Source: Flavobacteriales bacterium
Lineage (GTDB): Bacteria; Bacteroidota; Bacteroidia; Flavobacteriales_D; Crocinitomicaceae
Assembly (NCBI GenBank): GCA_947497485.1
Contig: CANMHB010000004.1
Coordinates: 124,001 to 188,000, forward strand
DNA: 64,000 bases
Direction of reading: 5' to 3'
In this document: in pieces, positions 4,208 through 6,783 of the stretch
How positions within the stretch are numbered: position 1 is the first letter of the stretch
How the letters are laid out: each line of letters opens with the position of its first letter
Notes under the pieces: generated by a model
The model's database searches: none
What the model was told of the DNA's origin: nothing
Seen by the model: the letters and a program-made list of their open reading frames with translations, nothing else
Made by a program: the position numbers and the translations under genes

Positions 4208-4291
4208 TGGATAATTGACGTATTATTTTAGGCAGGAAACCATTTTTTAATTGAAAATCATTGAAATGATTTTTGACTATGATTCAAATGC

Positions 4292-4323
4292 AAATAGGGT
4301 CGGGATTAATCCCGACCCTATTT
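4292..4323. terminator. Perfect 32-bp palindrome between convergent genes, probable bidirectional terminator
   Basis: The sequence is fully self-complementary: its left half is AAATAGGGTCGGGATT and the right half is the exact reverse complement. The outer bases are A-rich on the left and T-rich on the right, so either transcript would form a GC-rich stem followed by a short U run. It sits 85 bases after the RSH stop and 34 bases beyond the 3' end of the minus-strand LamG gene, the expected position for a shared terminator. Confidence 0.85.
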
Positions 4324-4356
4324 GGTAAAATATCAATCTAAAATGGTTTCAACCAT

Positions 4357-5721
4357 TTACTGCAAAACAATCTTCCTAACCGTCACCGTATTATTTTGCG
4401 GATCAATCAAATGAACGAAATACAATCCATTTCCTGACCACGTGCTTAAATCAACGTAAAATTGCTGTTGGTTGATGGCACTTTGAAATACCTGTTGTCC
4501 GGCATTGTTTTCTATTTTAATCGAGTATCCAGACATCGCCGAGTAATTTCCATTATCTATCGTAATGTGGTCACTGGTTGGATTCGGATAAATCAAAATC
4601 GTATTTTCGTTGTTTGGTGCAGGTAAGCCAAGTGATGTATTTATAACTAAAGTGTCAGTTACTGTCGTCAAAAGGGTGTCGTAAACCGTAACATTCGTAA
4701 TGCACGTATCAGCAATTTGGATGGTTGCAACGTTAGAGGTATCAGTACAGTTTCCTGAAGAGGCAATAACTCTAAATGGTTGGTTGTGGTTCGAAAGTTG
4801 AACATTAGAAACAGTTAATGTATTTGTGGTTCCTACTGAATAGTTAGTATTATTTGGAACATTTTGCCAACCATTATTTAGCGGATTGTTTTGCCATTGA
4901 ATGTTCTGAGATTGAGTGGGTGTTGAAATAGCAACATTTGAACCAATAGAAGTAGTTTGTGGATTAACTGTAATTAATGAATTAGAAATATAATTTAATT
5001 GTGAATGGAATAAATCCAAGATTTCACAATTTGAAATTGAACGATTCCAAATTGCAATTTCATCGATTGAACCATTAAAATTATTAGCGTTAACCGCTCC
5101 CCAAGTATCGTCACCAATTACGAGTGAAAGATTAGGATTTCCAACAAGGGCAGAGGGCTGAATTGAACTATTAATTAATAATGAATTAAAATAAACACTT
5201 TGAATTCCTCCCTCATATTGACATACAACATGATACCAATCATTTAAACTGACCGAATTATTTAACACACCAGAATAAGTTGTAGAACTTCCATTACCAA
5301 TTCTATAGTTTAATTTACCTGATGAAGAAACGGATATATTAAAACCAATGGCAGACGTACTTGAACTACTTTGTTGACTAATTAAAATTGATTCACCTGA
5401 AATTGGAAATGCATTTATTTTCACCCAAAATGATATAGCTTTTCCATTATTAAAATTAAAATTCGAAGAATTTTGCAATGATATAATATCATTTACCCCA
5501 TCAAAACCATACGCCTGATTCGCATTCCCAAATCTGTCCGTCGTCAACGTTGCCCCATTCACCGTTCCATTATTCCCATTACCACTTTCATCGTTGGCAT
5601 TTCCATTGAACGGCCACCAACCAACTAAGCCATTCGATGGTACATAACTTGGCACTTGCGCCATTAAATTCGTAGTGATACCAAGCCCAACGGCAAAGGC
5701 TGTAAATAAACTTTTCTTCAT
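4357..5721 (-). CDS. LamG-domain secreted protein with T9SS type A sorting domain
   Basis: The 454-residue protein starts with a Sec signal peptide (KKSLFTAFAVGLGITT, ending near AQ at about 22). A concanavalin-like laminin-G-3 domain spans about residues 25-235: GLVGWWPFNGNANDESGN is the classic start, followed by YGFDGVND and WNRSISNCEI near its end. A short Ig-like region (about 245-335) precedes a T9SS type A C-terminal sorting domain (about 375-454: IYPNPTSDHITI ... GLYFVHL ... KIVLQ). It should be exported through the outer membrane by the type IX system and either anchored or released. LamG domains usually bind glycans or proteins; the ligand here is unknown. It is transcribed alone, convergent to the RSH gene. 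The long inverted-repeat element at 5775-5930 lies just upstream of its start. Confidence 0.88.
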   Translation of the reverse strand: MKKSLFTAFAVGLGITTNLMAQVPSYVPSNGLVGWWPFNGNANDESGNGNNGTVNGATLTTDRFGNANQAYGFDGVNDIISLQNSSNFNFNNGKAISFWVKINAFPISGESILISQQSSSSTSAIGFNISVSSSGKLNYRIGNGSSTTYSGVLNNSVSLNDWYHVVCQYEGGIQSVYFNSLLINSSIQPSALVGNPNLSLVIGDDTWGAVNANNFNGSIDEIAIWNRSISNCEILDLFHSQLNYISNSLITVNPQTTSIGSNVAISTPTQSQNIQWQNNPLNNGWQNVPNNTNYSVGTTNTLTVSNVQLSNHNQPFRVIASSGNCTDTSNVATIQIADTCITNVTVYDTLLTTVTDTLVINTSLGLPAPNNENTILIYPNPTSDHITIDNGNYSAMSGYSIKIENNAGQQVFQSAINQQQFYVDLSTWSGNGLYFVHLIDPQNNTVTVRKIVLQ

Positions 5722-5774
5722 TTTTAAAGTTTCATTTTCACCCGCCCCGCAGTGAGTTTATACATAAAAAAAAA

Positions 5775-5930
5775 GCGTGGGACAGTTGCTTTACTCGTAA
5801 CAGAGGTCCGACCAAGAACCCGAAAACCAAGCAAAGCAACGCCCACACCGTAGCATGAGCGTTTTACTTTAACTTCCTGGTTTTCTTAGAAATTTGGTCG
5901 GTTTCCGTTACAGGTCGTTTAGCAAACGCT
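5775..5930. other. Nested inverted-repeat element, candidate structured RNA or palindromic mobile element
   Basis: The 407-bp gap between the LamG gene and higB contains two adjacent hairpins whose loops are complementary. Hairpin 1 pairs GTGGG/GTTGCTTT (5777-5792) with AAAGCAAC/CCCAC (5833-5846). Hairpin 2 pairs AGCGTTT (5858-5864) with AAACGCT (5924-5930). The loop of hairpin 1 contains GTAAC (5797-5801), CCGACCAA (5808-5815) and GAAAACCA (5822-5829). The loop of hairpin 2 contains, in reverse order, TGGTTTTC (5878-5885), TTGGTCGG (5894-5901) and GTTAC (5907-5911), the exact complements. No ORF is supported across it. It could be a two-hairpin kissing RNA, a 5' leader of the LamG gene, or a non-coding repeat. 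The remaining parts of the gap (5722-5774 and 5931-6080) are AT-rich with nothing recognised. Confidence 0.6.
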
Positions 5931-6081
5931 ATTTTTTAATATCCAATAAAATCCGTTTTTGCCGTTGCAAATGGATGTATAGCAAATGTATAAAAATTAT
6001 TTTTAATATCGAGGAAATTGAAAAATTACAACCTACGAAATGATTTTTTTTGTTAAATTAAAGTAGAAAATGATGTTTTTA

Positions 6082-6128: not shown

Positions 6129-6422
6129 TTGAGAGTAATTGCGAAAAAGACGTTGAGGGACTTTTGGGAAAAGCATGCAGACTGTGAACAAGCGTTGAAA
6201 TCATGGTATCAGGAAATTACCAAAGCTAATTGGCAGAACGGAAATGAACTAAAAAATGACTTTCCAAGCGTAAGTATTTTGAATAATGGGCGTTATGTTT
6301 TCAATATTAAAGGAAATAATTATCGCTTGGTTGTAAAAATCAATTTCGAATTTCAACTGGTATGGATACGCTTTATCGGAACGCATGCCAAATATGACAA
6401 AATTAATGCAAACGAAATTTAA
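6129..6422 (+). CDS. higB: HigB-type mRNA interferase toxin
   Basis: The 97-residue product matches the HigB/RelE-fold toxins that cleave mRNA at the ribosome. The blocks TLRDFWEKHADCEQAL, LKNDFPSVSIL, RYVFNIKGNNYRLVV and VWIRFIGTHAKYDKI are typical of the HigB family found with upstream-toxin operons. The start is a TTG at 6129; no in-frame ATG gives the conserved N-terminus RVIAKKTLR, so the weak start is probably genuine and may limit toxin synthesis. The antitoxin gene starts 4 bases after the stop. The order toxin then antitoxin is the HigBA arrangement. Confidence 0.9.
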   Translation: MRVIAKKTLRDFWEKHADCEQALKSWYQEITKANWQNGNELKNDFPSVSILNNGRYVFNIKGNNYRLVVKINFEFQLVWIRFIGTHAKYDKINANEI

Positions 6423-6426
6423 CATC

Positions 6427-6783
6427 ATGAATATCAAACCAATAAAAACTGAACAAGATTATCAGGACGCCTTGAACCGTCTTGAAACGATTTTCGATGC
6501 GAAATCAGGAACATCTGAAGGTGATGAACTTGAAATTCTTGGTTTACTCATCGATGATTATGAAAACAAACACTTTCCAATCGACTTACCGGATCCGATC
6601 GAGGCCATTAAATTCAGAATGGAACAGTTAGGCTACACGCAAAATGACCTTTCGAAAATATTAGGTCAGAAAAGTCGCGCCAGTGAAATATTGAACAAAA
6701 AACGAAAGCTTTCTCTTGAAATGATTCGAAAACTGAATTTGATTCTTAACATTCCTACGAATGTCTTGATTCAGGCGTATTAA
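6427..6783 (+). CDS. higA: HigA-type antitoxin, HTH DNA-binding
   Basis: The 118-residue protein begins at ATG 6427 with NIKPIKTEQDYQDALNRL, the usual N-terminus of this HigA class; an in-frame ATG at 6385 inside higB would add 14 residues that are not family-like. The N-terminal half (DELEILGLLIDDYENKHF) is the toxin-binding part. The C-terminal half is an XRE-type helix-turn-helix (YTQNDLSKILGQKSRASEI, RKLSLEMIRKLN). It should neutralise HigB and repress the promoter at 6082-6114, which holds a matching inverted repeat. Confidence 0.9.
   Translation: MNIKPIKTEQDYQDALNRLETIFDAKSGTSEGDELEILGLLIDDYENKHFPIDLPDPIEAIKFRMEQLGYTQNDLSKILGQKSRASEILNKKRKLSLEMIRKLNLILNIPTNVLIQAY

Follow-up and report, generated by a model that had tools for sequence, protein, structure and literature searches.

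A stretch of 64,000 nucleotides from a Flavobacteriales (Crocinitomicaceae) genome, hereafter the window, contains a strikingly self-complementary segment in front of a minus-strand LamG gene. The first-pass annotation, made from the letters alone, had proposed that this segment folds either as two hairpins with complementary loops or as one long imperfect inverted repeat, and had offered three identities for it: a switchable leader of the LamG gene, a non-coding RNA, or a dispersed palindromic DNA element. We asked which of these it is. Comparison of its homologues indicates that the segment is the approximately 170-letter start of an mRNA, which can take the shape of one long hairpin (the rod) or a terminator-like shape.

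The gene-sense strand folds far more stably than chance predicts

Six complementary blocks in mirrored order had been described on the plus strand, and all of them are present at their reported positions: GTAAC at 5797, CCGACCAA at 5808, GAAAACCA at 5822, TGGTTTTC at 5878, TTGGTCGG at 5894, and GTTAC at 5907. Read in the sense of the gene, the minus strand carries a −7-like motif, a small hairpin (H0), the element, a U-tract, a second hairpin (H3), and the ATG at 5721, which lies 51 nt from the conserved 3′ end of the element (Table 1). The minus-strand fold reaches −67.6 kcal/mol, whereas its shuffled versions average −42.07 (z = −6.67; none of 200 as good), so the proposed excess of self-complementarity was real. 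The plus strand scored z = −2.99 as RNA and −2.78 as DNA, each matched by a single shuffle out of 200. An inverted-repeat search of the window listed nothing at the element, presumably because its arms are interrupted. In 11 copies, the single rod is worth −61.4 to −66.9 kcal/mol versus −47.1 to −58.7 for 2 separate hairpins. The gene-sense strand gives the more stable fold in 94 of 99 members of the family, and the rod in their alignment holds 549 G-U against 39 A-C combinations. Because G-U so greatly outnumbers A-C, the constraint acts on the RNA of the gene-sense strand; together with the fold scores, this ratio rules out the plus strand as the RNA.

Table 1. Features of the leader region in window coordinates.
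Feature	Position	Strand	Evidence
Promoter-like −7 motif TACATTTG, 52 nt before element	5983..5990	−	
Small 5′ hairpin H0 (ATCC...GGAT)	5951..5976	−	By eye; similar hairpins by eye in LamG copies
Structured leader element	5768..5938	−	R1 match 178.5 bits; 99-member covariation
a: 5′ arm, outer stem of rod; partner is end of b′	5926..5930	−	Rod helix 1 paired 92.7%
x1: hypervariable arm	5905..5912	−	76 distinct sequences in 99 members; helix 97.1% paired
y1: middle arm, strict Watson-Crick with y2	5894..5900	−	37 distinct sequences in 99 members; helix 99.7% paired
z1: hypervariable arm	5876..5886	−	82 distinct sequences in 99 members; helix 95.7% paired
a′: partner of b in rod (apical hairpin P3)	5852..5863	−	Helix 93.8% paired
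b: partner of a′ (rod) or of b′ (terminator-like stem)	5838..5849	−	
z2: pairs with z1	5821..5831	−	
Mini-hairpin GGTT...ACCT, loop holds y2 (5808-5815)	5804..5820	−	88.5% paired, covarying
x2: pairs with x1	5796..5803	−	
Bulge CTGTCCC, unpaired in rod; candidate pseudoknot with H3 loop	5779..5785	−	
b′: 3′ arm, terminator-like stem	5774..5781	−	b/b′ 97.7% paired, 99 members
U-tract 3′ of b′	5766..5773	−	Run of at least 4 T within 10 nt: 85/99 members, control 0.102
Hairpin H3, loop GGGGC (5744-5748)	5738..5757	−	
Downstream gene: 454 aa, Laminin_G_3 domain and T9SS sorting tail	4357..5721	−	

The element recurs across the class

BLAST found 3 copies in the window's genome, the window copy included, and matches in 5 of 60 genomes, the window's own counted, all of a single genus. 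A covariance model (R1), built from 11 LamG copies, added a fourth copy in the window's genome. Run over samples at three taxonomic levels, which overlap and each include the window's genome, it hit 23 genomes in the order sample (n = 299), 77 in the class sample (n = 395), and 34 in the phylum sample (n = 395). In the phylum sample, 2 of the 34 carriers lie outside the class. The class-sample carriers belong to 33 family codes and hold 1 to 7 copies each, a range that also covers the order and phylum tables. Since this breadth rests on R1, and R1 on LamG copies, distant members are probably under-detected.

Scanning named MAGs with a sequence pattern returned 27 stretches. A script recognized a LamG-type N-terminus after 23 of them, and L045 has one by eye; L038 ends too early, and L030 and L041 are followed by other genes. 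The L041 copy, with no LamG gene, sits between a recombinase-like ORF (by eye) and a gene of unknown kind. On viral contigs, 2 sequence patterns gave no match; another gave 3, of which R1 confirmed L146 and L147 and not L148. Both confirmed copies, on virus-classified contigs, lie near transposase-like and integrase-like ORFs (by eye). Among plasmids, queries with the window copy, L100, or L083 found nothing; those with L115 and L131 matched one plasmid of Rhizosphaericola mali B3-10, pB3-10 (also an R1 match), and that with L128 matched plasmid p1 of Chryseobacterium sp. JJR-5R (R1, 72.8 bits). Both strains are named and cultured, and the annotation listings of pB3-10 and p1 show no feature under the match. 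Phages queried with L115 gave no match. At L023 (4225-4309; also L010; G033:C51), a promoter and the element's 5′ portion (R1, 25.3 bits) continue directly into codons for a C-terminal sorting domain; either recombination that truncated the copy or an assembly error would explain this.

The arms of the rod covary strongly

For the structural analysis we aligned 99 members (alignment A6; 100 sources were entered and L073 fell below the cut-off). Left out were (near-)duplicates (those of L001-L023 with windows already represented, L052-L056, L058, L059, L074, L075, and L078), the truncated L035 and L047, the weak L072, L090 (where the antisense strand passed too), L045 (owing to a limit of 100 members), and L015, a distinct copy in genome G003. 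LamG copies are over-represented, because the search pattern and R1 both derive from them. In A6, which the covariance model fitted to the rod and which hence favors it, 94.6% of the cells of the 52-pair rod are paired and 48 of the 52 pairs have changed on both sides. The covariation score of the rod is 0.651 versus 0.203 when shuffled and at most 0.087 when slid, and sliding the partners by 1 to 3 columns lowers pairing to 33% to 45%; kinship among members inflates the covariation counts, and the shuffles leave that kinship in. A MAFFT alignment made without structure fitting (A2) was 98.9% paired with double changes in 14 of 56 pairs, the structure tested on A2 having itself been derived from it. 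When all column pairs of A6 were ranked by mutual information, the x, y, and z pairs came out on top. The first-pass annotation had named a covariance search as one way to check its proposal and had staked that proposal in part on homologues and covariation; the search returned homologues in many genomes and strong covariation.

Compensatory changes in the stems and in the loop blocks had been named as support for an RNA. Covariation is clear in the rod arms x, y, z, and a′/b and in the stem b/b′; a/a′ shows hardly any. The y pairing is the strictest, with 690 of 693 cells Watson-Crick and 1 G-U, and the share of G-U is 6.3% in x, 2.1% in inner z, 18.8% in a′/b, and 12.2% in b/b′. We guess that the near absence of G-U in y reflects a kissing contact that does not tolerate it. 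The location of y2 in a covarying mini-hairpin (Table 1) fits a loop-loop contact with y1.

The element precedes a co-directional gene

Of the 99 members, 94 have a co-directional ORF as their nearest downstream neighbor, 2 have an opposite one, and 3 have none. Upstream ORFs are mixed (39 on the same strand, 56 on the opposite one, 4 absent). This survey allowed open starts, so it was used for strands, and its distances are not distances to the ATG. A TAnnTTTG motif starts 26 to 60 nt upstream of the element in 61 of 98 members, against a control of 0.015 to 0.040 per 35 nt beyond 130 nt and 1 of 98 for the reverse complement; around −33, TTG shows no enrichment (18/75 versus control 0.19). 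We regard it as nearly certain, on comparative grounds, that the element is a conserved RNA near a transcript start before a co-directional gene, and that its main fold is the rod with x1/x2, y1/y2, z1/z2, and a′/b paired. Among the identities first offered, a switchable leader of the LamG gene is thus the best supported, given the homologues, the covariation, the co-directional genes, and the promoter motif. A dispersed palindromic DNA element is disfavored by the 1 to 7 copies per carrier, the fixed orientation to the next gene, and the tolerance of G-U.

Divergent from the leader promoter, at approximately 6134-6783 on the plus strand, lie a small ORF and an HTH_3 protein (6385-6783), which we take to be a candidate HigBA-type toxin-antitoxin pair.

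Arm b keeps 2 mutually exclusive partners

Arm b can pair with a′ in the rod or with b′ in the stem before the U-tract. Energy minimization yields the rod for 88 of 99 members and a fold containing b/b′ for only 4, so an unaided terminator is not favored; imposing b/b′ raises the free energy by a mean of 12.9 kcal/mol (range 0 to 29.2). The b/b′ stem is still almost always pairable and covaries across the 99 members. At alignment positions 88-95 of b, both partners are pairable in 76 to 97 of 94 to 99 members, and position 96 is pairable with a′ only. Where b departs from the consensus (positions 89-95; 16 gap-free places), both pairings were kept at 11. At 8 of these places, in 7 loci (L064, L068, L083, L088 twice, L095, L105, and L108), all 3 letters have changed and both pairings persist; at 3 others (L081, which is the window copy, L086, and L106), both are kept otherwise. 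One pairing is lost at the remaining 5 (L067, L079, L095, L105, and L107). These patterns make it likely that mutually exclusive pairing is a selected feature.

The proposal that the segment could adopt either fold stood in part. Both folds can be drawn, and the second hairpin (b/b′ with the y2 mini-hairpin) covaries; for a/a′, the outer stem of the first, the frequency of pairing is about what composition predicts, with one position excepted. Only the second hairpin is therefore independently supported. The hallmarks of an attenuator that we found are an alternative pairing that is conserved and precludes the terminator stem (with losses at 5 of the 16 variable places in b), a stem followed by a U-tract (b/b′ 97.7% paired; U-run in 85/99), and a 5′ leader position before a co-directional gene (94/99; −7 motif in 61/98).

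A candidate pseudoknot links the rod to H3

UGUCCC, the bulge that the rod leaves unpaired, is matched by a complementary loop just before the gene (GGGACA or GGGGC), and variant loops (GGAACU, GAGACUC, GGGCUC, GGGGUC, and GGGUUU) occur with matching bulge changes. Scores for bulge and loop in cis (mean 14.61) exceeded those of all 5000 permutations. Strict Watson-Crick matches of 5 letters occur in 50 of 99 members (permuted mean 34.3; 0/5000), of 6 letters in 28 (14.9; 1/5000), and of 7 letters in 13 (5.4; 1/5000). Among the 50 members without GUCCC, the corresponding counts were 29 versus 18.5 (2/5000) and 12 versus 5.6 (29/5000). The bulge-loop pseudoknot thus appears real in a subgroup of members and not universal; in the window copy, the pairing requires G-U. 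In many members H3 lies directly 5′ of the ATG, and the pseudoknot would form only once the U-tract has been passed. At L139 (approximately 6130-6170, on the Rhizosphaericola mali plasmid), we noticed by eye swapped letters, GGAACT before the stem end and AGTTCC after it, an exchange of sides that would keep the pseudoknot.

Downstream genes include predicted surface and DNA-modifying proteins

All 4 close LamG paralogues in the window's genome adjoin a copy of the element, and a weak fifth match (C9) does not. The LamG N-terminal motif is present in 27 of the 94 co-directional genes, a share inflated by the route by which copies were searched for. In the other 67 genes, Pfam recognized 9 TonB plugs, 6 N6_N4 methylases, 4 Laminin_G_3 domains, 2 response regulators, and others; among the first 25 of 129 PADLOC families listed, models of type III methyltransferases match 6 genes. 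Among the matches listed, several further downstream genes look lipoprotein-like by eye. In LamG loci of the same genus, DNA similarity spans the leader and the first part of the gene, as if gene ends had been exchanged between LamG copies.

Other observations concern these loci. The LamG genes at L024-L050 share a near-fixed N-terminal peptide, PSYVPTNGLVGWWPFNGNANDESGNGNNGTVNGATLTTDRFG, and differ in their middles. On the 3′ side of the window's LamG gene, a self-match revealed a 34-bp perfect palindrome (4291-4324), and other LamG loci have similar 3′ ends; it is perhaps the terminator of the gene. At the receptor loci L113, L115, and L120, the ATG comes some 220 to 230 nt after the element, and the interval contains a further sequence common to these loci, GGCCCTCTA...AGAGGACCGTAGCTAATCAAAT (by eye), perhaps another regulatory element. 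At L126, an ORF for an RVT_1 reverse transcriptase starts 449 nt past the element.

Discussion

We lean towards the view that the element is a cis-acting, attenuator-like 5′ leader transcribed with the downstream gene; whether its output is transcription termination we judge an even call from the sequence patterns. As the RNA emerges, a′/b would pair, followed by z, y, and x. By default, the rod would form first and block the b/b′ stem, and transcription would continue into the gene. A signal that blocks the rod (a protein, a ligand, or another RNA) would let b/b′ form and stop transcription before the gene. In members with the bulge-loop pseudoknot, H3 could use it to keep b′ out of reach once read-through has occurred. 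Since the U-tract lies at the end of the rod's outer stem as well, the contrast in termination between the 2 forms may not be clean.

A leader that does not switch would explain part of the data: the rod and H3 would protect the 5′ terminus or determine how stable the mRNA is and how well it is translated, and the stem at the U-tract would be incidental. The dominance of the rod (minimum-energy in 88/99, with a mean cost of 12.9 kcal/mol for b/b′) and the placement of H3 just 5′ of the ATG in many members agree with it, but a passive rod needs neither a b/b′ stem that covaries and is kept along with a′/b nor a U-run in 85 of 99 members, and we consider this unlikely. A quite unlikely reading is a leader of the riboswitch type or one that binds a protein: the rod would be the receptor, its conserved internal loops around y would recognize a ligand or an RNA-binding protein, and the output could be translation instead of termination. 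Conserved unpaired letters between variable helices (AAA opposite ACC, and AUUU opposite GGU) would suit a receptor; against it, the downstream genes share no common pathway. A NusG paralogue as the partner was not supported either, as only one NusG is encoded in 6 of 15 carriers; in the window's genus, 2 NusG proteins occur in 4 of 4 carriers versus 5 of 12 non-carriers.

The 2 remaining explanations detach the element from the mRNA. With its own promoter motif and a terminator-like end, it might be a separate trans-acting small RNA that lies upstream of the gene by chance synteny. The co-directional ORF downstream in 94 of 99 members, set against mixed upstream ORFs, the DNA similarity of LamG loci that extends from the leader into the coding sequence, and the intramolecular complementarity of the arms make this highly unlikely. 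A mobile or recombination-active DNA palindrome (a MITE, a REP pair, or an attC-like site) would account for conserved ends around variable complementary interiors, for copies on plasmids and virus-classified contigs, and for the near lack of G-U in y, as expected of DNA pairing. It is barely credible in view of the 549 G-U against 39 A-C, the fixed gene orientation, and the absence of a homology boundary at the element ends when LamG copies were compared; REP- or MITE-type elements have many copies in any orientation to genes, whereas the window's genome has 4 copies, carriers have 1 to 7, and orientation is fixed across the family.

The attenuator-like leader can be set beside several known systems. 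Classical attenuators of the trp type follow a 1-2-3-4 leader logic. The element resembles them in its 4 arms, in the exclusive pairings 2-3 (a′/b) versus 3-4 (b/b′ with the U-tract), and in its 5′ leader position; it differs in having no recognized leader peptide, in the hypervariable complementary arms joined to the antiterminator, and in the unrelated accessory genes downstream. CopA-CopT and RNA I-RNA II are kissing RNAs whose loop contact can spread into longer helices. A loop contact in the element could likewise extend into helices, but both its partners lie within one molecule. The EAR (epsC) and JUMPstart elements are described as antitermination leaders of surface-feature operons tied to transcription elongation, and both are in Rfam (PMC2864571). 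Our element also leads surface-type genes, and the known systems have that link to elongation; according to the table in that source, it differs in sequence and taxa (PMC2864571), and it has no Rfam match and no NusG-paralogue partner that we could find. No Rfam 15 family matched the element in the window at the gathering cut-off, and a search of 28 member loci with permissive E-values gave no hit covering the element, so membership of a known Rfam family was rejected. Palindromic Bacteroidetes candidates of 80 to 132 bp (HMP2_1032, HMP2_4205, and HMP2_1065), predicted to be terminators, one of them near TonB, are described in another source (PMC8040213). They share taxon and palindromy with the element, differ from it in length, and could overlap with it. 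Literature searches, at the level of result listings, returned no paper recognized as describing the element.

We put forward tentatively, as a possibility with the odds against it, that the leader carries a private address. Each copy would have its own x and z arms, complementary inside its own molecule, so that near-identical leaders in one cell fold on themselves and avoid cross-pairing. The strict y loop-loop contact would start the rod, and a dispersed set of adhesin, receptor, and DNA-methylase genes would be switched jointly by one shared signal that addresses the conserved regions. If true, this would amount to an RNA-based regulon across Bacteroidota that moves along with its genes.

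A large, strongly covarying RNA without an Rfam match, present in about one fifth of the class-sample genomes, would be a new class of regulatory RNA. Its conserved alternative pairings make the mechanism testable through a few base swaps. The apparent targets (LamG/T9SS proteins, TonB-type receptors, and type III methyltransferases) suggest common control of surface and defense genes in environmental Bacteroidota.
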